In this document: piece after piece, positions 10,667 through 39,117 of the stretch | How the letters are laid out: the number at the start of each line of letters is the position of its first letter | How positions within the stretch are numbered: position 1 is the first letter of the stretch | NCBI RefSeq assembly: GCF_022968795.1 | Contig: NZ_JALJRB010000021.1 | Location: 1-64,000, forward strand | Source: Desulfatitalea alkaliphila | Lineage (GTDB): Bacteria; Desulfobacterota; Desulfobacteria; Desulfobacterales; Desulfosarcinaceae | Length of the DNA: 64,000 nt | Direction of reading: 5' to 3' | Notes under the pieces: generated by a model | Told to the model about the DNA's origin: nothing | The model's database searches: none | What the model saw: the letters and a program-made list of their open reading frames with translations, nothing else | Position numbers and translations under genes: made by a program

Positions 10667-12199
10667 TCATATTTGCTTTCCGCTAATCAAAAGAGGCAGC
10701 CGCGCCTCGATCATTGAGACCATCTCTTCTATTACCGCTTTTATCTGACTTGAATCATTATGCGTTCGCAGCACAACGACGGCACCATTTGTTTTTCTTT
10801 TAGCAAATCCACTCCAGAAAGTGATGATTTTGCCAGCCAATTCATTGGTAACGATCCGGCCATCGATATAATACCAATGATAAACTGTGGATGGTGGTTG
10901 GTCATCTCTCAATTGTGATCTATTAATAAAAAATGAGGGCCGGTGTTTGGAAATTTCGACTTTTTCCGCCTCCAGGTGCATCCAGTAACGCCGGCCGTCG
11001 ATAATTTTCCTGTCCCTGCCCTGGCTTTCAAAATAGCCGATGTAGAGTTCAACACTGCTGCCGTCATTGTCCCGATAGCGCCGCATTAGCTCTTGGTCGG
11101 CGGCAAAGGGCCTAAGTCGCTCATCGAACTGATCCAACGCTGTCCCGGTAAAGCCGGAAATATAGACGGGCAATTCCGCGAGAGGCGTCTTGAGCGGCAC
11201 CTGTTGCGGCGTATAGAGGTGTGTGATCCCCAATGTGAGCACAAACAGGGTTGAGGCTACGAGGGCTGGTGTCTTGTATTTCGGGGTTGATCCATTCAAA
11301 GACTGCTTTGCAGGGGATGATATTCGGCGGTCATCCAGGGCGTCCCCGCCATTTAGCTGTTCGCGGGCCTCGTTTTTCTTTCCATCCAGCTTTCTGAGCA
11401 CTTGATTGAAAATAACAAGCACGATCATGCCAAAAAAGAAAATGAAAGAAACGTATAAGGTTTCGTAGGGGCCATGCAATTCGGCATCCGGGTTGTACAA
11501 AGCGTAAATTCCGATAAGGGCAATGCGCAACCCATTGGCTAAAATACCAATGACCAGGGAAGCTATGACAACCAGCGCTTTTCGGGCGGTTGTGCGTTGC
11601 GTCAGATAGGCCAAGGGGACCGACAAGGCCGCAAGAGAAATGATATGACTGATGCCGCTGCAAGCTCTGGCTACTTCCAATGAGATATGGGGCAGCTCAA
11701 TCATGATGCCCCTATGGAAAACGGGCATTCCCGTCAATGCAAGGAGTTTGACGGCGATCCATGCAGAAATCTGCTGGAGCTGGTCGGCCACGCTGCCCAA
11801 ACCATATTCAATCAGCCCTGACAAAAATATCAGGTATCCGACCGGCACCAATAACGTTTTTAAAAACCCATAACCTAAAAGCAACCAGATATAGCCCAAG
11901 ATCATCGGCACCATGGATACAACTTGAATGAGCATCGTGCTGCTGATCTTTCCGGCATACAGAACAAGACCGCTGAAAACGATCAGCAGCGTGCCGGGCA
12001 GAAGCGCCGGTTGCGCAGGTAGCGTTCGCAATTCTTGGCGCTTGAGCCAAATCAGGTATAGGCTGACGGCAAGGATCAGGGGTGCGTGGGAGCCGTCGGT
12101 GGTGAGTGTTTTGGCAATGAGATGCTGCAAAGCGTCATAATAGAGCGAAATGAATGCGCCGGCAAGAACGGCTGTCAATAGCATTTTCTTGAAATTCAT
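10667..12199 (-). CDS. xrtA: Exosortase A fused to EpsI domain
   Basis: 510 residues. Residues ~1-270 form a multi-span membrane transpeptidase. The catalytic motif ARACSGISH (nucleophile Cys) lies near residue 180, followed by ANGLRIALIGIYALY (conserved Arg) and AELHGPYETLYVSFIFF (conserved His), giving the Cys/Arg/His set of exosortases. After a linker (~residues 275-305) comes a second membrane anchor and an EpsI-type periplasmic domain (YIGYFESQGRDRKIID, FWSGFAKRKTNGAVVVL). The XrtA-EpsI fusion cleaves PEP-CTERM sorting signals and is thought to attach the protein to a polysaccharide or lipid carrier. The clear candidate substrate in the window is the 65-residue protein at 38.7 kb. Confidence 0.93.
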   Translation of the reverse strand: MNFKKMLLTAVLAGAFISLYYDALQHLIAKTLTTDGSHAPLILAVSLYLIWLKRQELRTLPAQPALLPGTLLIVFSGLVLYAGKISSTMLIQVVSMVPMILGYIWLLLGYGFLKTLLVPVGYLIFLSGLIEYGLGSVADQLQQISAWIAVKLLALTGMPVFHRGIMIELPHISLEVARACSGISHIISLAALSVPLAYLTQRTTARKALVVIASLVIGILANGLRIALIGIYALYNPDAELHGPYETLYVSFIFFFGMIVLVIFNQVLRKLDGKKNEAREQLNGGDALDDRRISSPAKQSLNGSTPKYKTPALVASTLFVLTLGITHLYTPQQVPLKTPLAELPVYISGFTGTALDQFDERLRPFAADQELMRRYRDNDGSSVELYIGYFESQGRDRKIIDGRRYWMHLEAEKVEISKHRPSFFINRSQLRDDQPPSTVYHWYYIDGRIVTNELAGKIITFWSGFAKRKTNGAVVVLRTHNDSSQIKAVIEEMVSMIEARLPLLISGKQI

Positions 12200-13603: not shown

Positions 13604-14671
13604 TTAGAGGTTTATGTATTTTCTTACTTGGGGCCCTATACGGGTTGCCAGGGTTAGCGGCAGCTTTCGCCATGCCGCCGAAAGGTGCTCTCGATTTGCG
13701 TGGGTGCCATTTTGTGGGTGCGGCGCTTTATTGGAGGGCGTATTAACGGCATCATACCAGATCAGTGGTATCGGTTTCGCACCCCACTGTTGTTTGAATT
13801 TGTATGTCCCTTCACCCATGGTGGATCGTCCGAAGTCGAAGAGTTGAAATCCATTATCGGAACTGAACTTCAGAAAGTTCCAGTAAAGGAGCATGTTGGG
13901 TGCCAAACGGTTGTAAACCCGCAGGGTGGATGCCCAGGGTATGGAAATTTTATTGTCCGTCGCTAAGATGATGCCCATGCCGATTGTTTTGCCGTTATAT
14001 TCCGCCAGTCCTATTTTTGCGCGATTTGAGAACCGGGAAAGGACCTCTCGCAAGAAAGTCTTGGAATGCACGGGTGATCCGAGCTCGTGCATGTTTTTCG
14101 CAAAAACGTGGTAAGCGGCATCGATGTCTGCAAGGTGGCCCCAGCGAAATTGGACGCCGTTTTTTTCTGCTTTCCGTACTTGGCTGCGCAGTTTGGATTT
14201 GAAACTGTTGAACAAGGCTTGCGAAGTGGATGGCAAGTTGAGGATTAGACGGACTTTTCCGGTGTTTATCCGGTTGAAATGGTGATCGGCGGCTGCTGCC
14301 GGCGTGAGGTCGCCACGAAGGTGGAGTGTGGTGGATTTGGTGTTGTGTTTGAGTCGTATGGCCTGATTGAGAAGCATATCTTGTGTGGCTGAATCATCGG
14401 CCAAGCAGTTGCCGACGTCGCAATAAGGCAAACTGACCAATTGGTTGATGAATGGTGCCAGGCGCAATTGGAATAGCGGGAGCACACCTGAAATGTTGTT
14501 GTTTTTTTGGGCAAGTAAATAGGTGGCGCGGTGGCCGTATGCGGTTTCGATGGCTTGTTTCCACGCCCATAGGTGATATGGGGTGGCGTTGGGGTGGTTT
14601 AGGATGTAGGTGTCCCATTGTGGCTTGTCGGGTTCTTGGGCTGTTTTTATGGTGATTTCGTTGTCAGCCAT
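13604..14671 (-). CDS. FemAB-family XrtA/PEP-CTERM-associated acyltransferase
   Basis: About 355 residues from MADNEITIKTAQE (ATG 14671). The in-frame extension upstream encodes only REP-derived sequence and is rejected. Typical FemAB/GNAT text includes ATPYHLWAWKQAIETAYGH, FKSKLRSQVRKAEKNG near residue 165 and FDFGRSTMGEGTYKFKQQWG near 300. FemAB proteins transfer aminoacyl or acyl groups. The XrtA-linked subfamily occurs almost always beside the acyl-CoA ligase and ACP, as here. Its C-terminus is followed by a REP copy. Confidence 0.88.
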   Translation of the reverse strand: MADNEITIKTAQEPDKPQWDTYILNHPNATPYHLWAWKQAIETAYGHRATYLLAQKNNNISGVLPLFQLRLAPFINQLVSLPYCDVGNCLADDSATQDMLLNQAIRLKHNTKSTTLHLRGDLTPAAAADHHFNRINTGKVRLILNLPSTSQALFNSFKSKLRSQVRKAEKNGVQFRWGHLADIDAAYHVFAKNMHELGSPVHSKTFLREVLSRFSNRAKIGLAEYNGKTIGMGIILATDNKISIPWASTLRVYNRLAPNMLLYWNFLKFSSDNGFQLFDFGRSTMGEGTYKFKQQWGAKPIPLIWYDAVNTPSNKAPHPQNGTHANREHLSAAWRKLPLTLATRIGPQVRKYINL

Positions 14672-14706
14672 TTGAAACAATTTATTGCATTTGTGGGTGG
14701 TCGGTT

Positions 14707-14736
14707 GGTGGATCCGCTGCGCTTGATCCACCCTAC
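14707..14736 (-). repeat. REP hairpin copy 2 (variant)
   Basis: As copy 1 with GCTGCG in the loop; ends 3 bp before the ligase stop. Confidence 0.88.
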
Positions 14737-22891: not shown

Positions 22892-23314
22892 TCATTTTGT
22901 TTTGAGCCAATTGATGATGGCCTTTTGAAAGTGATGGAAATCATCGAGGTGCTTTCGTAATATCCCCACAACGATTTCCACATCAACCCTGTCATAATGA
23001 TGAACGATGATGTTTCTGAATTTTGCTATTTTTTCCAGCGTTCGACAAAGGTCCCCATCGATAATTGTGTTTTCATGCAATACCCGGAAGGTGTCGGCGT
23101 AACTGTCAGGCAACCTGAAGCCTTGATCGGAAATGATGTGCCCAGCGATATCCACGCAGGTTTCAATCATCATCTGCAGGGTTCGTTCGATGATGCGCTG
23201 CAATTTCCAATCCGCACGATATGCATCGGTAGATGTACCCCTAAATTCCGAGATTTGCTGATAATATTGCTCAAATTCAGATATTTTCCGCAGAATCAAT
23301 GTCTTATCAACCAC
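22892..23314 (-). CDS. hepT: HepT-like ribonuclease toxin (HEPN, DUF86), copy 2
   Basis: 140 residues. KFRNIIVHHYDRVD has the RX4HXY motif. Overlaps mntA copy 2 by 8 bp. Longer than copy 1 and only distantly similar, so it is not a recent duplicate. Confidence 0.88.
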   Translation of the reverse strand: MVDKTLILRKISEFEQYYQQISEFRGTSTDAYRADWKLQRIIERTLQMMIETCVDIAGHIISDQGFRLPDSYADTFRVLHENTIIDGDLCRTLEKIAKFRNIIVHHYDRVDVEIVVGILRKHLDDFHHFQKAIINWLKTK

Positions 23315-23732
23315 CCAAATACCTCCTGGTCAGAATCTTCGATTCTATATTACGGTGATAATCGAAATATTTTCTCATCGTGATGGAGAGGTGCCGGTGG
23401 CGAATGTGTGGCTGCCGGTCGGTGAGCCTTTTGCTGTTTTTGAGGATGTTCATGCTGATGGGTAAGGTGGCTTTGTTGAGGATCACCAGATCGATTTCGT
23501 CGGTTCCCAGTATATCATTCAGGCATCCCAGGATTTCCATTTTTGCTTGCGCCAGTTCGTCGTCATGGGTCAGATAGACGGCGATATCCACATCGCTGAG
23601 GGGTGTTTGTTTACCTTTGGCCAGACTCCCGAAGAGTAATGAAAAGGCCACGTCCGGTCTTGAATCGAGATAGGCGGCGGCGGCTGGGATGCGCTCAAGG
23701 ATGTTGTTTGGTAATTGGTTGGTTTTGATCAT
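23307..23732 (-). CDS. mntA: MntA-like nucleotidyltransferase antitoxin, copy 2
   Basis: 141 residues from ATG 23732; the in-frame extension crosses a REP and is rejected. LLFGSLAKGKQTPLSDVDIA is GSX10DXD with the AMP-transferring Asp pair. Lies 14 bp after the deacetylase stop and overlaps hepT by 8 bp, so it is probably carried on the exopolysaccharide transcript. Confidence 0.88.
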   Translation of the reverse strand: MIKTNQLPNNILERIPAAAAYLDSRPDVAFSLLFGSLAKGKQTPLSDVDIAVYLTHDDELAQAKMEILGCLNDILGTDEIDLVILNKATLPISMNILKNSKRLTDRQPHIRHRHLSITMRKYFDYHRNIESKILTRRYLGG

Positions 23733-23746
23733 TGGTATGGGTTTGA

Positions 23747-24745
23747 TTAGGGGGTGTTGGTGGATCCGCTTCGCTTGATCCACCCTACGGTGTTGTGGGT
23801 TGTCGGTTGTTGGTTGTGGGTTGGTTGTTGTTGGTTGTTGTTGGTTGTGGTTGTGGTTGTTGTTATGGTTTCGATGTATTGGGTGCAGGTTTGGAAGCGG
23901 CAGTGTTTGAAGCGGGTGATCAGGTGGTGGAGCCGGGTTTGGGTTTGGTGGAGGTTCAGGTAGTGGCGCCAGGTGTTGAGGGTCGGTTTTGTTTGGACTT
24001 TGGGTTGATCCGGGTCGAGTTCCCAGGGGTGTATGTAGAAGTGGTAGACGCCTGTTTTTTGGAGGATATGGCGCACGCCGGCGTTGAACAGTGGTGGTGG
24101 TAGAAGGCGGAAATAGCCGCCGCCGCCCCAGGGGATGGTTTTGCCGGCCAGTTGCAGGTTGCTGATGGGCAGTTCGTGGAACTGCTCGCCGAGTTGGAGC
24201 GCCATTCCTGTTTGTTTGTGGTTGTTGCTGATGCGGCCGTAGCGGTGGTTCATTGCGAAGGAGTTGTAGCTGGCGTCGTAGCGGTAGCCGCATTGGTGGA
24301 TCATTTGCAGGACGTTGTCGTCGATGGAGAAATTGGGGGCACGGTAGCCGTATACGGGTTGGCCTGTGAGCGCTTCGAGGCGTTGTTTGCTGGTGCAGAG
24401 GTCTTCCAGGAGGTCAGCGGGCGCCATTTGGTTGCACAGCAGGTGGCTGTTGCCGTGGGAGGCGACTTCGTGGCCGCGGTTGTGGATTGCTTGGACCAGT
24501 TGTGGGCATCTTTGGGCGATCCAGCCGAGGATGAAAAAGGTGGCTCGGATGGGTTTTTTGAAGCTGTCGAACAGGTCCAGCAGGCAATGGGTGTTGGTTT
24601 CGACGCGCAATGGGTGTTCATGCCAGTGATCGGGCGGAAACCAGGGGCGCAGGTTTTCGACCTGGAACCAGTCTTCGACGTCGATGGTCAGAAGGATGGT
24701 TGGCGGTGATTGTGTTGTTGGTTTGGCGGCTGATTTTTGGTGCAT
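23747..24745 (-). CDS. Polysaccharide deacetylase, XrtA/PEP-CTERM locus subfamily
   Basis: 332 residues. NodB motifs: TIDVEDWF at ~20-27, RATFFILGW near 70, RGHEVASHGNSH near 92, YRAPNFS near 135, and HPWELD near 240. The family deacetylates N-acetyl sugars of the exopolysaccharide, possibly at the periplasmic face. The conserved domain ends near residue 290; the last ~40 residues are a translated C/A tract (Thr/Asn/Gln) and then [12 protein letters not shown], the translated REP at 23759-23788. The native stop seems lost and the stop used lies past the repeat. Confidence 0.9.
   Translation of the reverse strand: MHQKSAAKPTTQSPPTILLTIDVEDWFQVENLRPWFPPDHWHEHPLRVETNTHCLLDLFDSFKKPIRATFFILGWIAQRCPQLVQAIHNRGHEVASHGNSHLLCNQMAPADLLEDLCTSKQRLEALTGQPVYGYRAPNFSIDDNVLQMIHQCGYRYDASYNSFAMNHRYGRISNNHKQTGMALQLGEQFHELPISNLQLAGKTIPWGGGGYFRLLPPPLFNAGVRHILQKTGVYHFYIHPWELDPDQPKVQTKPTLNTWRHYLNLHQTQTRLHHLITRFKHCRFQTCTQYIETITTTTTTTNNNQQQPTHNQQPTTHNTVGWIKRSGSTNTP
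23759..23788 (-). repeat. REP hairpin copy 7, inside a coding sequence
   Basis: Consensus copy read in frame as [10 protein letters not shown] at the C-terminus of the deacetylase. Confidence 0.9.
23791..23866 (-). repeat. C/A-rich tract coding the deacetylase tail
   Basis: About 75 bp read as the Thr/Asn/Gln-rich tail of the deacetylase, next to REP copy 7. Confidence 0.7.
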
Positions 24746-30410: not shown

Positions 30411-31802
30411 TCATCTTCCCCTTCCGAAAAGAACGGTTTTGACCGTTCTGGCAACGATCATGATGTCCATCAGAATCGACATGTTCTTTATGTAGAACAG
30501 GTCGTAATTGAGCTTTTCGATGGCATCCTCCACGGAGGCACCGTAGCCGTAACTCACTTGGGCCCAACCGGTCAACCCCGGTTTGACCGAAAAACGCTCG
30601 CCGTAATAGGGAATGATCTCTTCCAGCTGCTTGACGAAATGCTCGCGCTCCGGCCGGGGCCCGACGAAACTCATTTGCCCTTTGATCACGTTCCACAATT
30701 GGGGCAGCTCGTCGATGCGCCACTTGCGGATGAAGTGGCCGACGCGGGTGATGCGGTTGTCGTTGTCCTGGGCCCAAACCGGTCCGGTCTCTTTTTCGGC
30801 GTCGCTGCGCATGGATCGGAACTTGTGCACCATGTAGGGCTTGTGGTGCCGCCCTACCCGCTCCTGGGAGAAGATCGCGGGCCCTTTGGAGTCCAGCTTG
30901 ATGACGATGGCCACCAACAGGATCAGGGGCATCAGCACAATCAGCATGGCGGCGGAGAGCACCAGGTCGACGGTACGCTTGATCAGCTTCTGGGCTTTTG
31001 TTTTCTGAAACCCCTCGGAAAAGATCAGCCAGGCGGGATTGATCTGTTCCACGATCAATTTACCCGTGAGCATCTCGTAAAACGTGTTGCCTTCCAGAAT
31101 GTCGATGCCGTCCACCCGGCATTTGAGCAGTTCCTTGACGGGCAGGGTGCCGCGCTTCTCTTTGAGGGCGACGACGATCTTGTCGACGCGCATCTGCTTG
31201 GCCAGATCGCACACATTGTCGAAGTGGTTCTGGCAGATCATGCCGGCGTTGCTGCTGCAGGGCCACACTTCCCACGGTTTGTCCGAAAGCACGGATGCGA
31301 TTTCGTACCCGCAATCCTTTTTTTGTTGAATCTCGTTGGCGATTTCGTGGGCCGTGTCGCTGGAGCCCATGATCATGATCTTCTGGTTGAACAAGCCCTT
31401 GTTGAGAATCTGGGTGTAGCCGATGCGCCAGGCAATAATCAACAGGAATACGAAGGCGATGCTGACGATGAAAATGCCCTCTCCGATGATGAAATCGGGA
31501 AAGAGGAAATAGAACAGCGCCAGCAGGATGGCGGCGGCACCGAGGGCTTGCAGCAGGCGGATGCCCAGCTCGCTGAGCGTGTCGGTGATTTGCAGGTCGT
31601 AGAGGTCATTGTAGTACAGGCAGGCCTGGCAGGTGATGGTGATCAGCAGGACCTTGAGCAGCAACGGCGGGTCGAAGTGCACTTGATCGGACCCGATGAT
31701 CAACAGGCAGGCAATGACGACGGACAAGAAAATGAAAATCCCCTCGCCGAAAACGAAGATGGCGTTGCGAACGGGATAGTACTGTTTGAAGAGTCTCAGC
31801 AT
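30411..31802 (-). CDS. Undecaprenyl-phosphate sugar phosphotransferase, XrtA-associated
   Basis: About 463 residues from ATG 31802 (MLRLFKQYYPVRNAIFVFGE is the family N-terminus). Four N-terminal membrane spans, a CoA-binding-like/Rossmann middle domain (IMIMGSSDTAHEIANEI), a fifth membrane segment (LVLSAAMLIVLMPLILL) and the polyprenyl-P transferase domain: SQERVGRHHKPYMVHKFRSM, RKWRIDELPQLWNV and MSFVGPRPEREHFV. It starts the lipid-linked repeat by adding a sugar-1-P to undecaprenyl phosphate at the inner membrane. Confidence 0.93.
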   Translation of the reverse strand: MLRLFKQYYPVRNAIFVFGEGIFIFLSVVIACLLIIGSDQVHFDPPLLLKVLLITITCQACLYYNDLYDLQITDTLSELGIRLLQALGAAAILLALFYFLFPDFIIGEGIFIVSIAFVFLLIIAWRIGYTQILNKGLFNQKIMIMGSSDTAHEIANEIQQKKDCGYEIASVLSDKPWEVWPCSSNAGMICQNHFDNVCDLAKQMRVDKIVVALKEKRGTLPVKELLKCRVDGIDILEGNTFYEMLTGKLIVEQINPAWLIFSEGFQKTKAQKLIKRTVDLVLSAAMLIVLMPLILLVAIVIKLDSKGPAIFSQERVGRHHKPYMVHKFRSMRSDAEKETGPVWAQDNDNRITRVGHFIRKWRIDELPQLWNVIKGQMSFVGPRPEREHFVKQLEEIIPYYGERFSVKPGLTGWAQVSYGYGASVEDAIEKLNYDLFYIKNMSILMDIMIVARTVKTVLFGRGR

Positions 31803-31918
31803 GGTTCCGGTCCAGTTTCGTAAAGCCCTACCGGGCGATTCGCTGACCAACCGCATTCGGCCTGTGGGCGTAGGAACGGCAAGGAGGTGCCGGATCCGCT
31901 TCACGGTTTCCAGACTGC

Positions 31919-32752
31919 CTATTCACGGTAATAGCCCTTGCTGTAGCCGTAATATTTTTTGACCGACTGTTGTGCCTGGTTCAGTACGATGCCCAAAATC
32001 TTCTCCTTGCCGATCTGCTCGATGGTGTCGGTGACGGCCGAACGGGGGGTTTTCCCCGAACGGACCACCATCAGTACACCGTCCACCTGTTTGGCGATGG
32101 CTGCCACTTCAGCGGCCATGGAGGGCGGTGGTGAGTCGATGATGATGAACCGATCATCATAACGGTGCACCACCTCGTCGAGCATGGTTCGCATGCGCTT
32201 GGACGAAAGCAGTTCGGTGGGATTGCGCGGCGGCCGGCCGCCCGGCAGCAGGGTAAGCCTTGGAAACGGTGTCTTGTGCAGCAATGTCTCCAAGGGCGCC
32301 TGGCCGTTGAGGTAGTCGCTGAGACCACGTGTGGTCCCGTACCCGAAACAGGTGTGCAGGGATGGACGTCGAATGTCACAGTCCATCAACAGGACGTAAT
32401 CTTCCAGCCCGGCGGCAATGCTGATGGCCAGGTTGGCGCTGACGAAGGATTTGCCGTCCCCCGGTACGGCGCTGGTGACCAGGATCGATTTGGGCGGATT
32501 GCCCTCGGCCGGAAAGAGCAAATTGGTGCGCAGCACCTTGAACAGCTCGGCTTCAACCGACTGGGGCCGGTGATAGGTGATCAGGTTGATATCCAGCCGG
32601 GTGTCACTGTGCTTCAAGGCGTTGCCGACAAATTGCACCACGTTCTCCTCGGGTGCCTTTTCCGTTCGCTGCCTTTCGGGCATCGCACGCCCACCTTCGG
32701 CAGGCTTTTCTTGTTTGTCGGCCTTTTCCAGCGCATCGTAGATCTTTCCCAT
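31919..32752 (-). CDS. Exosortase A-associated BY-type tyrosine kinase / CpsD-like
   Basis: About 277 residues from ATG 32752, with AAAAGGA six bases upstream of it. MGKIYDALEKADKQ start; Walker A SAVPGDGKSFVSANLAIS near residue 100, A' VLLMDCDIRRPS, Walker B FIIIDSPPP, and a C-terminal Tyr cluster KKYYGYSKGYYRE for autophosphorylation. It partners the chain-length protein encoded upstream, as in split Wzc systems, and controls polymer length and export. Confidence 0.93.
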   Translation of the reverse strand: MGKIYDALEKADKQEKPAEGGRAMPERQRTEKAPEENVVQFVGNALKHSDTRLDINLITYHRPQSVEAELFKVLRTNLLFPAEGNPPKSILVTSAVPGDGKSFVSANLAISIAAGLEDYVLLMDCDIRRPSLHTCFGYGTTRGLSDYLNGQAPLETLLHKTPFPRLTLLPGGRPPRNPTELLSSKRMRTMLDEVVHRYDDRFIIIDSPPPSMAAEVAAIAKQVDGVLMVVRSGKTPRSAVTDTIEQIGKEKILGIVLNQAQQSVKKYYGYSKGYYRE

Positions 32753-32784
32753 AAGCATTCCTTTTGGCTGTGGGTTGCAGCGCC

Positions 32785-34356
32785 CTACAGCACCGCGATC
32801 TTTTGTAACAGGGCCGCAACCGGCTCCACGCCTTTGACGGTGAGCAATCCGAAGAGACCGACCAAACCCAGCACAACAACCCCGAAAACGGCCGAAGCGC
32901 AGACATTGGCCCATTTGAGGACTTTGTCGCGACGCCGCATGATCCGTGGGATGGCGGTGATCACGGGCAATCCGTATTCGGCTTCCAAATCCTCGGGTTT
33001 TCGGTAGGACGGCTTAATGACAAACTCCGTCAGAAACACCAAACCACCGCCGATGGCCAATCCCAGGGCCATGGTCATCATGAACATTTTGCGCACATCG
33101 GGGGCAATGGGGCGTTGCGGCACCTGGGCAGGGTCGACGACCCGGAACTGCTCGCCCTTTTGTTTGCGTTCCATGTTGACGGCGATGTCGGCCTCGATCT
33201 TGCGGGCCAGCAAAGAGTTGTAGCTGGCCTGGATGTTTTCATAATCCCGGCGCAGCCCCAGCAGCTCCTGTTCCCGCCGCGGGGTGTTCTCGATGCGCCT
33301 TTTGTAATAGGCGACCTGGCCTTGCAGCTCGTCGATTTCACGCTCCAGGGCTTGGATCTCCCGGCGCACTTCGCTGACCTGGGCGCGCACTTCTATCGGC
33401 ACATTGGCGGCCGGCGGCGTGCTGCCGTCATCGGCGGCCAACCGCTGCGCTTCCCGGGCTTCAAGATCCTCTATTTGACGGATCAGTCGTTGAATGTCCG
33501 GGTGGCGTTCGGTGTAGCGCGCGCGCATGGCGTCCAATTGGGCTTTGAGCTCCTGCAATGAGGCGCCGCCTTCATCACCGCGGCGGTCGCCGCCGATCAC
33601 CACCACGGACGGTCCGCGGGCCGATGCCTGGTTGGTCAAATCGGAAAGGCGGGCGCGGGCATCCCGCAGGTTCTGCTGGCGGCTGGAAAGATTTTCCTGC
33701 AGGCGGTCAAGAATACGCAGATTGGTATCGAGCTGTTCGGGCAGTTCACCCATATTGGTACGGCGGTAGGTTTCGATATTGCCTTCCAGAATCTCGAGAC
33801 GGTCGCGCATGGCGGTCAATTCGGCATCCAAAAATTCACTGGTGCCCGCGGCCTGGCTCTCACGGACCACGATATTGGCGTTGATGAAGGAGCCGGCCAA
33901 ACCGTTGGTCACCCGGGTCACCAGCTCCGGGTCGCGGCCCTTGAAGGCGATGGAGAAAGCATCCGTACCGCGCCGGTCACGGATCACCTCCACCGATATT
34001 TGGCGTCGCATGGCTGCGATTTTGTCCTCCATAAACATATTGGCCTGGGCAGGTTCGCTGAAGAGGTTGAAATCGCTTATGACTTTTTCCAGGTTGGTCC
34101 GGCTCATGATCTGCTGGGAAATGGTGCTGATGCGCTCTCCCGGGTCGGCGGTGACGATGGACCGCACGAAGGCCTCCGGCACCCGTTGGGGTTCGACCAG
34201 AATAAGCGTCTTGGCTTCGTAGGTGCGGGGCATCGTAAAAGCCAAGTAAATGCCTACGATCAAGGCGGCGGCAAGGGGCAGCAAGATCATCCACCGCCGT
34301 CGCACAACCATATCGATGATCAGATCGGGGGTGATTTTAGCGGGCATGCTCATCAT
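32785..34356 (-). CDS. Polysaccharide chain-length determinant (Wzz-like), XrtA-associated
   Basis: About 523 residues. ATG 34356 has AAAGGTG seven bases upstream; an ATG at 34380 (8 codons longer) has no clear ribosome site. TM1 WMILLPLAAALIVGIYLAF, a long periplasmic coiled-coil region (residues ~170-410, many Glu/Arg/Leu), then VDPAQVPQRPIAP and TM2 MFMMTMALGLAIGGGLVFL, with a third hydrophobic segment near the end (VFGVVVLGLVGLFGLL), as in the PEP-CTERM chain-length family. Forms an inner-membrane oligomer with the tyrosine kinase. Confidence 0.92.
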   Translation of the reverse strand: MMSMPAKITPDLIIDMVVRRRWMILLPLAAALIVGIYLAFTMPRTYEAKTLILVEPQRVPEAFVRSIVTADPGERISTISQQIMSRTNLEKVISDFNLFSEPAQANMFMEDKIAAMRRQISVEVIRDRRGTDAFSIAFKGRDPELVTRVTNGLAGSFINANIVVRESQAAGTSEFLDAELTAMRDRLEILEGNIETYRRTNMGELPEQLDTNLRILDRLQENLSSRQQNLRDARARLSDLTNQASARGPSVVVIGGDRRGDEGGASLQELKAQLDAMRARYTERHPDIQRLIRQIEDLEAREAQRLAADDGSTPPAANVPIEVRAQVSEVRREIQALEREIDELQGQVAYYKRRIENTPRREQELLGLRRDYENIQASYNSLLARKIEADIAVNMERKQKGEQFRVVDPAQVPQRPIAPDVRKMFMMTMALGLAIGGGLVFLTEFVIKPSYRKPEDLEAEYGLPVITAIPRIMRRRDKVLKWANVCASAVFGVVVLGLVGLFGLLTVKGVEPVAALLQKIAVL

Positions 34357-34394
34357 GGCGGCACCTTTTTTCTTTGTCATTTAAAATCGATATG

Positions 34395-35771
34395 TTAAAC
34401 AATCTCATAATTCCTCATTTTGTTCAACATCGATTTGTAGCTGATATTGAGCAGGGCCGCGGCCCGCTTGCGATTCCAACTGGTGACGGCCAGGGCCTGT
34501 TGCATCAGCTTCTTTTCCGTTCGCTGCACATAATGGTCGCAAATCGATTTGAGGGGCACCCTGCCCAGGGCCGCCATGCACTTTTGGATTTCGGAGGGAT
34601 CCAAATCGGCCTCCATTTCAAAGGCGGCGGCCATGGTATCGCGGATGGTGGGTTGTGCCCAGGGTTGATCCGATTCGGCAAACAGGGATGTTTCGCTGCC
34701 CAAGTCAACCAACCGTTGCATAGTGTCGCACAGTTCATCCAAATTGCCCGGCCAGGGGTATCCGTAAAGCCGTTGGACCAAGTCGGCGGAGGGCAGCATG
34801 AAGCTCCTGTTGCGCCGGGCGCACGCCGCTATGACGAAGTGATCCATCAACAGCGGCAGATCCGGTTTGCGGTTACGCAACGGCGGCAGGTAGAAAGGAA
34901 TCACGTTCAAGCGATAGAAAAGATCGCGACGAAAGCGGCGCCGCTCAACCAAATCAGCCAATCCAACTCCCGCGGTGGCGATGAACAGCACCCGCGAGGC
35001 CCACCAATTGTCCTCCAGCAGCAGCAATATTTTGGATTGGGCTGCAGCGTCGAGGCAGTGCACGTTGTGCAATAAGACGGTCGCTCCCTCGGGGCGCGTG
35101 CCTGCCTGCACCACGGATGCCGGCCACCAGCCGTCTCCGGCCGCGTGGGCGGCGGCCATCCGGTCGTGGTCTGCGCTCGCGCCATTGAGTTGGGCACAGT
35201 CCAAACGGATAAAGGCGCCTTCGCCGTCGATGCGTTGGGCGATCATGCGCGCCAGATGTTCCTTGCCTGTGCCGCTTTCGCCGGTAATCAATATGGGATC
35301 ACAATTTTTGGTCACCCCTGCAAGGGCGGTGCGAATGCCACGGATCTCGGGCGTATCGCCGACCAGCAGTTCCTCTTGCAACGGTGCGGCGGGCAGCGGC
35401 GCACGCAGGGTGGTCTTCAACGCTTCGCAATCCAGTTGCTCCGCCAAGCCCGAGGCCAGGTACTGCACCGGAAACGGCGGATTCGACGTTTGTACGGGGT
35501 TCTCCATCATTGTTTTTGATAGCACCAGTAACCGTGCGCCCGATCTGCAGGCATGCAAGGCGCAGCCGAATCGCCACACGAGGGGGGTCGAATCGGTGCG
35601 CAGCACGACGGCCGCCGGGTCGATGGAGGCGAGGTTATCGAAACAATTGGTTTCCCGTTCGAAACAGAACACCCGCAGGCGTTCCCGAAGGAGCACGCTG
35701 CGCCAATGACCGCGCTCGGCGGCGCTTTTGGCAAATACAATAACAGGTTTCTGCAAGGAAGCGGTGGCCAT
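34395..35771 (-). CDS. Degenerate NtrC-like AAA+/Fis-HTH protein without GAFTGA
   Basis: 458 residues. Residues ~8-95 look like a receiver domain without the acidic pocket. The AAA+ domain has an intact Walker A (ITGESGTGKEHLARM) and arginine region (FRRDLFYRLNVIPFYLPPLR), but the L1 loop with GAFTGA is missing: that position reads CAQLNGASADHDRMAAAHAA. Walker B is ATVLLHNVHCLD instead of GTLFLDE. The Fis-type HTH (NRKRAAALLNISYKSMLNKM) is intact. It should bind DNA and perhaps ATP but is unlikely to open sigma-54 complexes. A strong sigma-54-like site lies upstream, and it is the first gene of the wzz/kinase/sugar-transferase run (14 bp to wzz). Confidence 0.8.
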   Translation of the reverse strand: MATASLQKPVIVFAKSAAERGHWRSVLLRERLRVFCFERETNCFDNLASIDPAAVVLRTDSTPLVWRFGCALHACRSGARLLVLSKTMMENPVQTSNPPFPVQYLASGLAEQLDCEALKTTLRAPLPAAPLQEELLVGDTPEIRGIRTALAGVTKNCDPILITGESGTGKEHLARMIAQRIDGEGAFIRLDCAQLNGASADHDRMAAAHAAGDGWWPASVVQAGTRPEGATVLLHNVHCLDAAAQSKILLLLEDNWWASRVLFIATAGVGLADLVERRRFRRDLFYRLNVIPFYLPPLRNRKPDLPLLMDHFVIAACARRNRSFMLPSADLVQRLYGYPWPGNLDELCDTMQRLVDLGSETSLFAESDQPWAQPTIRDTMAAAFEMEADLDPSEIQKCMAALGRVPLKSICDHYVQRTEKKLMQQALAVTSWNRKRAAALLNISYKSMLNKMRNYEIV

Positions 35772-36800: not shown

Positions 36801-37895
36801 TCAATCCAAGGGATACCCACCGTTGCCGCTCGGGGGATTGATGCTGAGCTCGGTGATTTTGTTCAACAGGGTTTTGTAACTGACTTTGAGAATCTTGGCG
36901 GCTTTGCTGCGATTCCAATCGGTTTTGGCCAAGACGTAGGTGATGATCTCGCGCTCCACCTTGTCCACGGCTTTTTTCTTGGCTTCCTTGAGGGAAAAGG
37001 CGCCGTTGGCGATCAGATCCTTGTTGTCCATTTCCAGCAACTCGGAAATGGGGTTCCGGCCACGAACGGGTGGCGCCGGGTCGGCGCCGTTGGATTCCGG
37101 ACTTGGCACGGGCGGAGCTGTTTGCTGAAGATTTTCCGGGGCTTCGAAAAGCTCGTCCACAATCTTGTCGGCGTCACCCAGTACCAGCATGCGCTTGAGG
37201 ACGTTCTGCAGTTCGCGTACATTGCCGGGCCAGTGGTAGCGCATCAGGCGATCGACGACATGGGGATCCAGCTTTTGCACGTTAATGCTGCCCAGTTGCA
37301 ACGCGAATTCCTGAAGATAATAGTCGATCAGGGGAGGAATATCTTCCGGTCTTTCGCGCAGGGGAGCGATGACGATTTTGATGATGTTCAACCGGTAGTA
37401 AAGGTCTTCCCGGAATTTGCCCTCCATGATTTCTTGCTTCAAGTCATGATTGGTGGCCGCGATAACCCACGTGTCGGTCTTGATATCCTTTTCGGATCCC
37501 AGGGGGGCGAATTCGCCGGTTTGCAACACATGCAGCAGTTTGGCTTGCAGCACGAGGGACATGTCGCCGATTTCATCCAGCAAAAGCACGCCGCCATGGG
37601 CCAATTGGAATTTGCCTTTGCGTTTTTGCTCGGCACCGGTGAAAGCACCCCGTTCATAACCGAACAGTTCGCTCTCCAACAACCCTTCGGGCAGTGCGGC
37701 ACAATTGATCTTTACGAAGGGTTTTCCCATTCGCGGCGACTTCATGTAGAGGTTCTGGGCGATGACCTCTTTGCCTACGCCGCTTTCACCGAATATCACC
37801 GTGTTGAATCCGGTGTGGGCGACGTGCTCCACCAGTTCGCGAATTTTGCGGATATTTTCGCTAACACCTATGATCGGGGGTCCCATATCAGCCAT
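36801..37895 (-). CDS. Sigma-54-dependent activator, AAA+ plus Fis HTH, no receiver
   Basis: 364 residues. Begins directly with the AAA+ domain: VIFGESGVGKEVIAQNLY (Walker A), ESELFGYERGAFTGAEQ (sigma-54 contact loop), GGVLLLDEIGDMS (Walker B), FREDLYYRLNIIKIVIAPLRERPEDI (Arg finger region). C-terminal helix-turn-helix WNRSKAAKILKVSYKTLLNKI. All functional motifs are intact. A free receiver protein is encoded 3 bp upstream. Together they correspond to the domains of PrsR-type regulators of PEP-CTERM systems, encoded as two genes. Confidence 0.93.
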   Translation of the reverse strand: MADMGPPIIGVSENIRKIRELVEHVAHTGFNTVIFGESGVGKEVIAQNLYMKSPRMGKPFVKINCAALPEGLLESELFGYERGAFTGAEQKRKGKFQLAHGGVLLLDEIGDMSLVLQAKLLHVLQTGEFAPLGSEKDIKTDTWVIAATNHDLKQEIMEGKFREDLYYRLNIIKIVIAPLRERPEDIPPLIDYYLQEFALQLGSINVQKLDPHVVDRLMRYHWPGNVRELQNVLKRMLVLGDADKIVDELFEAPENLQQTAPPVPSPESNGADPAPPVRGRNPISELLEMDNKDLIANGAFSLKEAKKKAVDKVEREIITYVLAKTDWNRSKAAKILKVSYKTLLNKITELSINPPSGNGGYPLD

Positions 37896-37898
37896 ATG

Positions 37899-38270
37899 CT
37901 ATTTGTTCAGCAACTTCTGAGCAGCTTGTTCCAGCTCCGGTAGTTTGAAAGGTTTTTCCATCACCAAGTCGGCTTTGGCCTCCTTGGCGAGCGCCTCGGG
38001 ATGCTCACCCCAGCCTGTGATGGCGATGACGGGCAAGTGCGGGTGCTTTTTCTTGACAATGGCGATAACGGCGACGCCGCTGATGTTGGGCAACACCAAG
38101 TCGGTGATAATCAGGTCCAGACCTTCCTTTTCATTTTCGATCACCTTCAGACCGTCCAGGCCGTTGGCCGCCGATAGCACTTCGTACCCCTTTTGCCTGA
38201 AATACTTGCACAAGGCCGACAACACCTCTTCCGTATCTTCGATGATCAACACTTTGAAAGGGGGACCCAT
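37899..38270 (-). CDS. Stand-alone response-regulator receiver protein
   Basis: 123 residues, one receiver domain: VLIIEDTEEV (acidic pair), LDLIITDLVLPN (phospho-acceptor Asp near residue 55), VIAITGWGE (Thr) and MEKPFKLPEL (Lys). GAGGAG upstream of ATG 38270. It precedes the AAA+ activator by 3 bp and likely controls it in trans; no histidine kinase is in the window. Confidence 0.93.
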   Translation of the reverse strand: MGPPFKVLIIEDTEEVLSALCKYFRQKGYEVLSAANGLDGLKVIENEKEGLDLIITDLVLPNISGVAVIAIVKKKHPHLPVIAITGWGEHPEALAKEAKADLVMEKPFKLPELEQAAQKLLNK

Positions 38271-38684
38271 CTATCGCTCCTCGATCATTGCAGCCGCGGC
38301 CCTCGGAATCCCGGTCGCTACCAGCCGGCCGCTTTCCACACGGAACCGGAATGTGATTCAACCGTATAATTTTGTATTATTAATTCAATCCGGGCGCCAT
38401 GGCAAGACCAAGTTCAGCCAACAAGTCGGCGAACGGGTCGCGTACGGCGGATTTACCCTCCCGATCCGCAGGGCGAAAAAAGCCGCCGGGACTTGTTGGG
38501 GTGGGTTGTGGGTTGTGGGTTGTGGGTGGTGAGTTGTGGGTGGTGAGTTGTGAGTGGTGGGTGCCACCCCCCGACGGGGGGAGGGTGGAAGGCACGACGC
38601 AAGGATGCCGGACCCTGATGGGCCTTTTGGCAATATACGGATTTCGTGAGTTATAATAGGGGACTACGGAAGCCTGAAGGAAGA
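38271..38684. other. Gap between receiver gene and PEP-CTERM gene
   Basis: Contains an A/T-rich segment (38361-38390) that may hold the promoter of the receiver gene, though no clear -35/-10 was found, and a C/A-rich tract (38493-38562). No gene recognised. Confidence 0.6.
38493..38562 (-). repeat. C/A-rich low-complexity tract
   Basis: GGGTTGT/GGGTGGT heptamer-like units on the plus strand, repeated about ten times with variation. Confidence 0.7.
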
Positions 38685-38882
38685 TCAGCGCAGCAATTTT
38701 CGCTTTACGACACTACCGAAACCGATGAGGCCCACACCGAACAGCAACAGGCTCATGGGTTCCGAGAAAGCCCTTGCCGCCATGGGTTGTGTATCGCCGA
38801 TGCCTGCCGCGGCGCTGACACACAACAGTACTACCGCGGCCACGCTTGAAGTAAGCAAAACAAATTTGAACGTCTTTTTCAT
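38685..38882 (-). CDS. Minimal PEP-CTERM sorting-signal protein
   Basis: 65 residues from ATG 38882 (AAGGGGGTG upstream). Three parts only: signal peptide MKKTFKFVLLTSSVAAVVLL with CVSAAAG as cleavage region, about 15-18 residues (GIGDTQPMAARAF), then the tripartite sorting signal SEPMSLLLFGVGLIGFGSVV + KRKLLR: SEP in place of PEP, hydrophobic span, basic tail. It is the only exosortase substrate visible in the window. After both cleavages fewer than 20 residues would remain. A sigma-54-like promoter sits ~50 bp upstream. Confidence 0.85.
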   Translation of the reverse strand: MKKTFKFVLLTSSVAAVVLLCVSAAAGIGDTQPMAARAFSEPMSLLLFGVGLIGFGSVVKRKLLR

Positions 38883-38932
38883 CTGAGCACCCCCTTTTTC
38901 ACTGCGATCTTTCATGAAGCTTGACAACCGTA

Positions 38933-38950
38933 AAGCAACAGCAATGCCAA
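38933..38950 (-). promoter_or_regulatory. Candidate sigma-54 promoter of the PEP-CTERM gene
   Basis: Minus strand TGGCATTGCTGTTGCT: 10 of 12 consensus bases with GG-N10-GC spacing and a T-run after the -12 box. Leader about 40 bp. Confidence 0.6.
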
Positions 38951-39117
38951 AATCGAAGGGGTAGTGTTTTTAAAACCTATTGATCTTTATTTTCAGTGAG
39001 TTGAATACAATTCGAGAATTTGTCGAAAGGATAAAGAGGAGGTCAGGAAAGGCAAGGAATAGGTATTCCACACCACAGCTTAGCAAGAATTGTGTAAAGG
39101 ACTACATACTCGGTGCG

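Follow-up and report, generated by a model that had tools for sequence, protein, structure and literature searches.

A conserved SEP-motif mini-protein behind a predicted sigma-54 site at an exopolysaccharide cluster of Desulfatitalea alkaliphila: a candidate weak exosortase substrate

At the head of a polysaccharide gene cluster, contig NZ_JALJRB010000021.1 of Desulfatitalea alkaliphila carries an open reading frame of 65 codons. Its product would consist of little beyond an export signal and a sorting signal resembling that of PEP-CTERM proteins. Is this a genuine gene, and if so, is its product a substrate of exosortase, a regulator of it, or something unrelated? These questions were addressed on the first 64,000 nucleotides of the contig (the window) and on related genomes.

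The mini-protein and its genomic setting

The features discussed are collected in Table 1. The first-pass annotation had described a reading frame of 65 codons with a signal peptide, about 15-18 residues, SEP, a hydrophobic span and KRK, an observation that the sequence bears out, with the signal peptide as read by eye; the upper end of its interval, 38950, includes the -24/-12 site (38949-38934). The remainder of under 20 residues expected there after both cleavages agrees with the roughly 16 residues predicted here.

Table 1. Features of the window around the mini-protein gene and in the polysaccharide cluster (cut-offs are those of the respective models).
Feature	Position	Strand	Basis or remark
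Exosortase W (XrtW), EpsI-type C-terminal domain	10667..12199	-	NF038142, 525.3 bits, cut-off 425; TIGR02914
FemAB-type protein	13604..14731	-	TIGR03019, 276.8 bits, cut-off 260.35
EpsB-type glycosyltransferase	30411..31904	-	TIGR03013, 464.6 bits, cut-off 393.35
Tyrosine autokinase-like protein	31919..32914	-	TIGR03018, 201 bits, below cut-off 230.65
Polysaccharide chain-length protein	32785..34380	-	TIGR03007, 302.8 bits, cut-off 278.85
Second, divergent sigma-54-activator-like protein	34395..35771	-	Domain scan; just before chain-length gene
Sigma-54 activator without receiver	36801..37895	-	PF00158, PF02954; 74-78% identical in G001, G005, G007, G009
Receiver-only response regulator	37899..38270	-	PF00072; 82-85% identical in G001, G005, G007, G009
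Mini-protein gene, 65 aa + stop	38685..38882	-	ORF, ATG start; sequence MKKTFKFVLLTSSVAAVVLLCVSAAAGIGDTQPMAARAFSEPMSLLLFGVGLIGFGSVVKRKLLR
Basic tail KRKLLR	38688..38705	-	Sequence
Hydrophobic span, residues 43-59	38706..38756	-	Sequence, profile and alignment
16-residue segment, residues 27-42, ending S40-E41-P42	38757..38804	-	Sequence
Predicted signal peptide, residues 1-26, ending A-A-A	38805..38882	-	Cleavage site read by eye
Ribosome-site-like AAGGGGG before ATG	38890..38896	-	By eye
Sigma-54 -24/-12 site TGGCATTGCTGTTGCT	38934..38949	-	51 nt before ATG; one of two strict matches in window
Possible activator site ATGTAGTCCTTTACA	39093..39107	-	143 nt upstream of sigma-54 site, just beyond pyrG stop; lacks chance control

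Read by eye, the N-terminus has a K-rich start led by KK, a hydrophobic stretch and A-x-A, and the extreme C-terminus has the hydrophobic span and basic residues that PEP-CTERM proteins require. The C-terminal motif, the hydrophobic span, the basic tail, an upstream sigma-54 site and a presumed export signal are what it has in common with PEP-CTERM proteins (TIGR02595 / PF07589; Haft et al. 2006). The mini-protein differs from them in its length and in having Ser for the near-invariant first Pro of Pro-Glu-Pro. Its assignment to the PEP-CTERM models, as suggested by the first-pass annotation, held for TIGR02595 (NCBIfam; 18.3 bits, cut-off 16) but not for PF07589 (Pfam; 17.9 bits, gathering score 20.7). 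Both the substitution and the Pfam score count against a reading as exosortase substrate. An AlphaFold model contains two helices only (mean pLDDT 66.1, pTM 0.35).

In the genus branch of the window, the mini-protein gene heads a cluster of receiver, sigma-54 activator and polysaccharide genes. The earlier expectation that it would be conserved in relatives beside this polysaccharide cluster was borne out in G001, G002, G005, G007 and G009. The window, G001, G005, G007 and G009 share the same-strand order of mini-protein gene, receiver-only regulator and receiverless activator. The chain-length, kinase and EpsB genes are next in G005 (EpsB as a 38-residue match only), G007 and G009, and the contig of G001 stops soon after the activator gene. 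In G002 these three genes follow the mini-protein gene with no regulator-pair match between, and the contig of G011 stops 1.3 kb beyond the mini-protein gene. A terminator scan from the mini-protein gene to the receiver gene found none, so that separate transcription is unsupported. In eight loci of genus g4 (seven intact and the damaged one of G028) the mini-protein gene adjoins an rlmN-like gene and not the polysaccharide cluster, which counts against the substrate reading; the rlmN-like call rests on scans of two loci (289.6 and 288.5 bits, cut-off 290) and, for the other six, on BLAST clustering. Because this neighbour is RlmN-like, the idea that the g4 mini-proteins have a radical SAM partner that modifies peptides was rejected.

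Several further observations were made along the cluster. The regulator pair (36801-38270) is 74-85% identical within the genus and 62-63% identical in G109; the mini-protein, with 34-49% identity in the same genus-branch genomes, is far less conserved than this adjoining pair. The second activator-like protein also occurs in G007 and G009 (about 40% identity). Short repeats of the GGTTGTG/GGTGGTGA type at about 38498-38560 and in other intergenic stretches give rise to artefactual 'QPTTHNPQPTT' starts in several ORFs. An MntA-type antitoxin domain (23307-24293; NF047752, 79.5 bits, cut-off 60) lies inside a longer, probably over-extended ORF.

A constrained family behind predicted sigma-54 sites

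Relatives were sought with the single protein in 60 related genomes and, across 389 genomes of the order, with an alignment of 11 rows. Among the matches listed for the latter, 15 copies form the family (G000, G001, G002, G005, G007, G009, G011, G017, G019, G021, G022, G023, G026, G028 and G029), and all are confined to one taxonomic family. A phylum sample of 395 genomes gave no copy besides that of the window among the matches listed, and a search of a viral collection gave no relative. Fourteen copies are intact with 59-66 residues; that of G028 lacks a normal N-terminus. The motif is SEP in 13 copies and LEP in G019 and G021, which also lack most of the basic tail. In the 11-row alignment S40, E41, P42, G49 and L52 are invariant, the invariant Ser applying to those 11 rows only, since the two LEP copies are left out; a wider alignment of 16 rows retains only E, G and L. 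Majority identity is 0.91 in the F-S-E-P block, 0.67 in the anchor and 0.35 in the linker, which within g4 is conserved as a DFIGxGALP-like sequence. TIGR02595 at E <= 0.1 reported, of the family copies in these 15 genomes, only that of the window. This sets the orthologues apart from ordinary PEP-CTERM proteins and counts against the substrate reading.

For six pairs from g4, dN is 0.12-0.17; dS is saturated in one of them and 0.82-2.57 in the other five. Genus-level pairs from the branch of the window have dN of 0.32-0.42 with saturated dS, and constraint is still seen in pairs including G017 and G021. Because the orthologues align nearly without gaps and are of similar length, with dN far below dS in close pairs, the reading frame is more than a chance ORF: the mini-protein gene represents a real, conserved and constrained family.

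By score, a sigma-54 site precedes all 14 intact family copies. The strict pattern is found in 13 of them (chance expectation 0.0063 per 300 bp); the site of G011 ends in TTGCG. Further upstream, 130-143 nt from the sigma-54 site, a TGTA-TTACA dyad, a motif without chance control, occurs in five of seven genus-branch genomes. G009 has TTTACA at 129 nt, and G002 has neither. For comparison, Haft et al. 2006 (PMC1569441) describe TTTACA-ending and sigma-54 motifs, on average 62.8 nt apart, before 99 of 167 proteobacterial PEP-CTERM genes. According to PMC9850573, pepA of Aquincola tertiaricarbonis, a PEP-CTERM gene tied to exopolysaccharide, depends on RpoN. The mini-protein gene resembles pepA, as described there, in its predicted sigma-54 -24/-12 promoter, gene type and tie to exopolysaccharide; motif and genomic setting differ. 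PEP-CTERM genes under sigma-54 activation are likewise a feature of the PrsR/PrsK system (TIGR02915 / TIGR02916). In the window, however, the receiver is not fused to the activator but forms a protein of its own, and the activator scores 280.3 bits against the TIGR02915 cut-off of 502.6.

Exosortase, larger PEP-CTERM proteins and related minis

XrtW is the sole exosortase match of the genome. The first-pass annotation had placed the mini-protein in a full XrtA locus as its single substrate, and neither statement stands. The enzyme clears the XrtW cut-off (Table 1) and misses that of the XrtA model TIGR03109 (152.2 bits, cut-off 208). The cluster is similar to XrtA-type exopolysaccharide loci in its TIGR03007, TIGR03013 and TIGR03019 members, which exceed their cut-offs; it differs in its EpsI-type XrtW and in its TIGR03016, TIGR03018, TIGR03098 and TIGR03108 members, which fall below theirs. 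Nine TIGR02595 matches of the genome exceed the cut-off, the mini-protein included. Of the other eight, seven are larger and carry VPEP, and one is a second mini-protein, of 56 residues and with SPEP (L063:5571-5740, G000:C36). A sigma-54-like site precedes this second mini-protein by 117 nt, and it lies near a 770-residue tetratricopeptide-like ORF and a 390-residue proline-rich PEP-CTERM ORF.

By its predicted architecture, the mini-protein belongs to a wider class of signal-plus-anchor mini-proteins (minis) in the order. Outside the family, 22 were noted among the matches of the same profile: 7 with SEP, 3 with SEA or SES, 4 with other non-PEP motifs and 8 with PEP. For comparison, 52 larger proteins (open frame of 130 aa or more) were sampled from the same matches listed, mostly in rank order; 51 have PEP and one (G156) has SEP. 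Against this 1/52, SEP is enriched in the family (13/15, p = 6e-11) and in the other minis (7/22, p = 6e-4). Since the profile favours SEP, the value for the larger proteins is conservative; small proteins gain profile score from the N-terminus, so that divergent motifs may be over-found among the minis. Fragments and cases with an unclear signal peptide (G119, G249, G368, G180:C175, G026:C17, G006:C51 and the G017:C100 piece) were excluded from the mini counts, and an SEP protein of G201, of about 120 residues in a 196-residue open frame, is intermediate and was counted in neither group. In G109 and in G193, minis are neighbours of polysaccharide genes; in G333, one lies near an exosortase fragment. 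Outside the order, the matches listed include 12 short open frames, none with SEP. Two of these are signal-plus-anchor minis, both with PEP (G632 and G631), and that of G632 has a sigma-54 site.

Of 36 minis, 29 have a sigma-54-like site within 300 nt that reaches a score of 13.0 out of 14.5 or more; the remaining 7 score below this threshold, which was picked after the scores had been seen and is controlled by single-base shuffles. Another sigma-54 count over the minis, 9/36, is rough because L099, L105 and L118 are fragments or mis-read frames. Start codons of the minis were set by rule or by eye, those of G167 and G051 being uncertain.

PF09721 exosortase matches occur in 24 of the 32 genomes with noted minis and in 148 of all 357 remaining genomes (p = 3e-4), two of the 24 (G172 and G333) resting on weak or partial matches. 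In eight of the 32 (G005, G007, G017, G021, G051, G109, G276 and G378) no exosortase was found, which counts against the substrate reading. Within the family, profile searches found none in 4 of the 15 genomes, with TIGR02602 additionally used on G005, G007 and G017, and PF09721 and TIGR04178 on G021. Ordinary PEP-CTERM matches are present in G005, G007 and G017 and absent from G021. The assemblies of G005 and G007 break within the polysaccharide region, whose genes lead towards contig ends, so that an unassembled exosortase is a fair explanation in these two. PEP-CTERM matches without a PF09721 exosortase were seen in G005, G007, G008, G017 and G378, pointing to missed assembly or an unrecognised enzyme.

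Possible roles of the mini-protein

The first-pass annotation had put forward three kinds of role, a carrier peptide, an anchor for the polysaccharide and a competitor or regulator of exosortase, among which the present observations do not discriminate. We favour the reading that the mini-protein is a weak substrate of exosortase, produced together with the polysaccharide. More precisely, it may be a mini-substrate within the sigma-54 regulon that is processed poorly, owing to its SEP, and that tags the polysaccharide or paces exosortase; we assign this a probability of roughly 0.4. The TIGR02595 score, the promoter class, the linkage to the cluster, the conserved motif and anchor and the co-occurrence with exosortase all argue for it. 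By analogy with known pathways, Sec would export the protein, signal peptidase I would cleave off some 26 residues, and the C-terminal span would keep the remainder anchored in the inner membrane, about 16 residues reaching into the periplasm. The single XrtW would then act on SEP less efficiently than on the VPEP of the larger proteins, and the short peptide might be released or transferred during polysaccharide synthesis. The mini-protein would thereby tag the polysaccharide or pace the enzyme rather than function as a surface protein itself. A folded surface domain would be less in keeping with a conserved motif and anchor and a variable linker than a role centred on motif and anchor, such as engagement of exosortase.

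The same conservation pattern is also compatible with the main rival, a membrane mini-protein that is never cleaved and that occupies or regulates exosortase or other polysaccharide machinery. Its SEP would bind uncut, as a brake made by the sigma-54 system of the substrates themselves. The abundance of SEP in the family against its rarity among larger proteins speaks for such a competitor, but 8 of the 22 comparable minis outside the family keep PEP, and we consider it unlikely, if a serious candidate. The mini-protein might instead act without any exosortase, as a peptide, either secreted or anchored in the membrane, that merely resembles PEP-CTERM and could be a signal or the small companion of another envelope protein. 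The eight mini-bearing genomes without a detected enzyme, and the constraint that holds in pairs including G017 and G021, would be expected in this case. Minis are nevertheless enriched in exosortase-bearing genomes, and the ordinary PEP-CTERM matches in G005, G007 and G017, along with the contig ends near the polysaccharide regions of the first two, make a missed or unassembled enzyme plausible, so that exosortase independence appears quite improbable.

That the protein passes the TIGR02595 cut-off, and that VPEP and IPEP minis occur too, two of them outside the order, would suit an ordinary if short PEP-CTERM surface protein, with nothing special in size or motif. The nearly fixed length and the rarity of the motif in larger proteins make this, in our estimate, slightly more improbable still. 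Finally, the gene could derive from a larger PEP-CTERM gene by truncation or decay. Larger genes of this type do exist elsewhere in the genome, as the first-pass annotation had allowed for, and the G028 copy lacks a normal N-terminus. Against decay stand the 14 intact copies of nearly constant length, the conserved promoter and, in g4, dN far below dS. Truncation was rejected for the family on the orthologue alignment and dN/dS, and its probability is negligible.

Beyond the weak substrate favoured for the window, we tentatively propose, as a possibility short of likely, that SEP-type minis form a distinct, recurrent class in Desulfobacterales; no description of them was found in the open-access literature. 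They would be exported and would present some 16 residues on a membrane anchor, their production falling under the sigma-54 programme that also governs the exopolysaccharide. The altered motif may keep them from becoming ordinary exosortase cargo, so that they might gate exosortase, report on its activity or act as a signal once released.

Most copies in the mini-protein family, a conserved set of small and presumably secreted proteins, escape the standard PEP-CTERM profile, and the minis are natural proteins reduced to little beyond export and sorting signals. To our knowledge, the cleavage sites and acceptors of exosortases are still unsettled. If the SEP minis are cut, they would be minimal substrates for finding both; if they are not, SEP would mark a natural competitor or regulator of exosortase.
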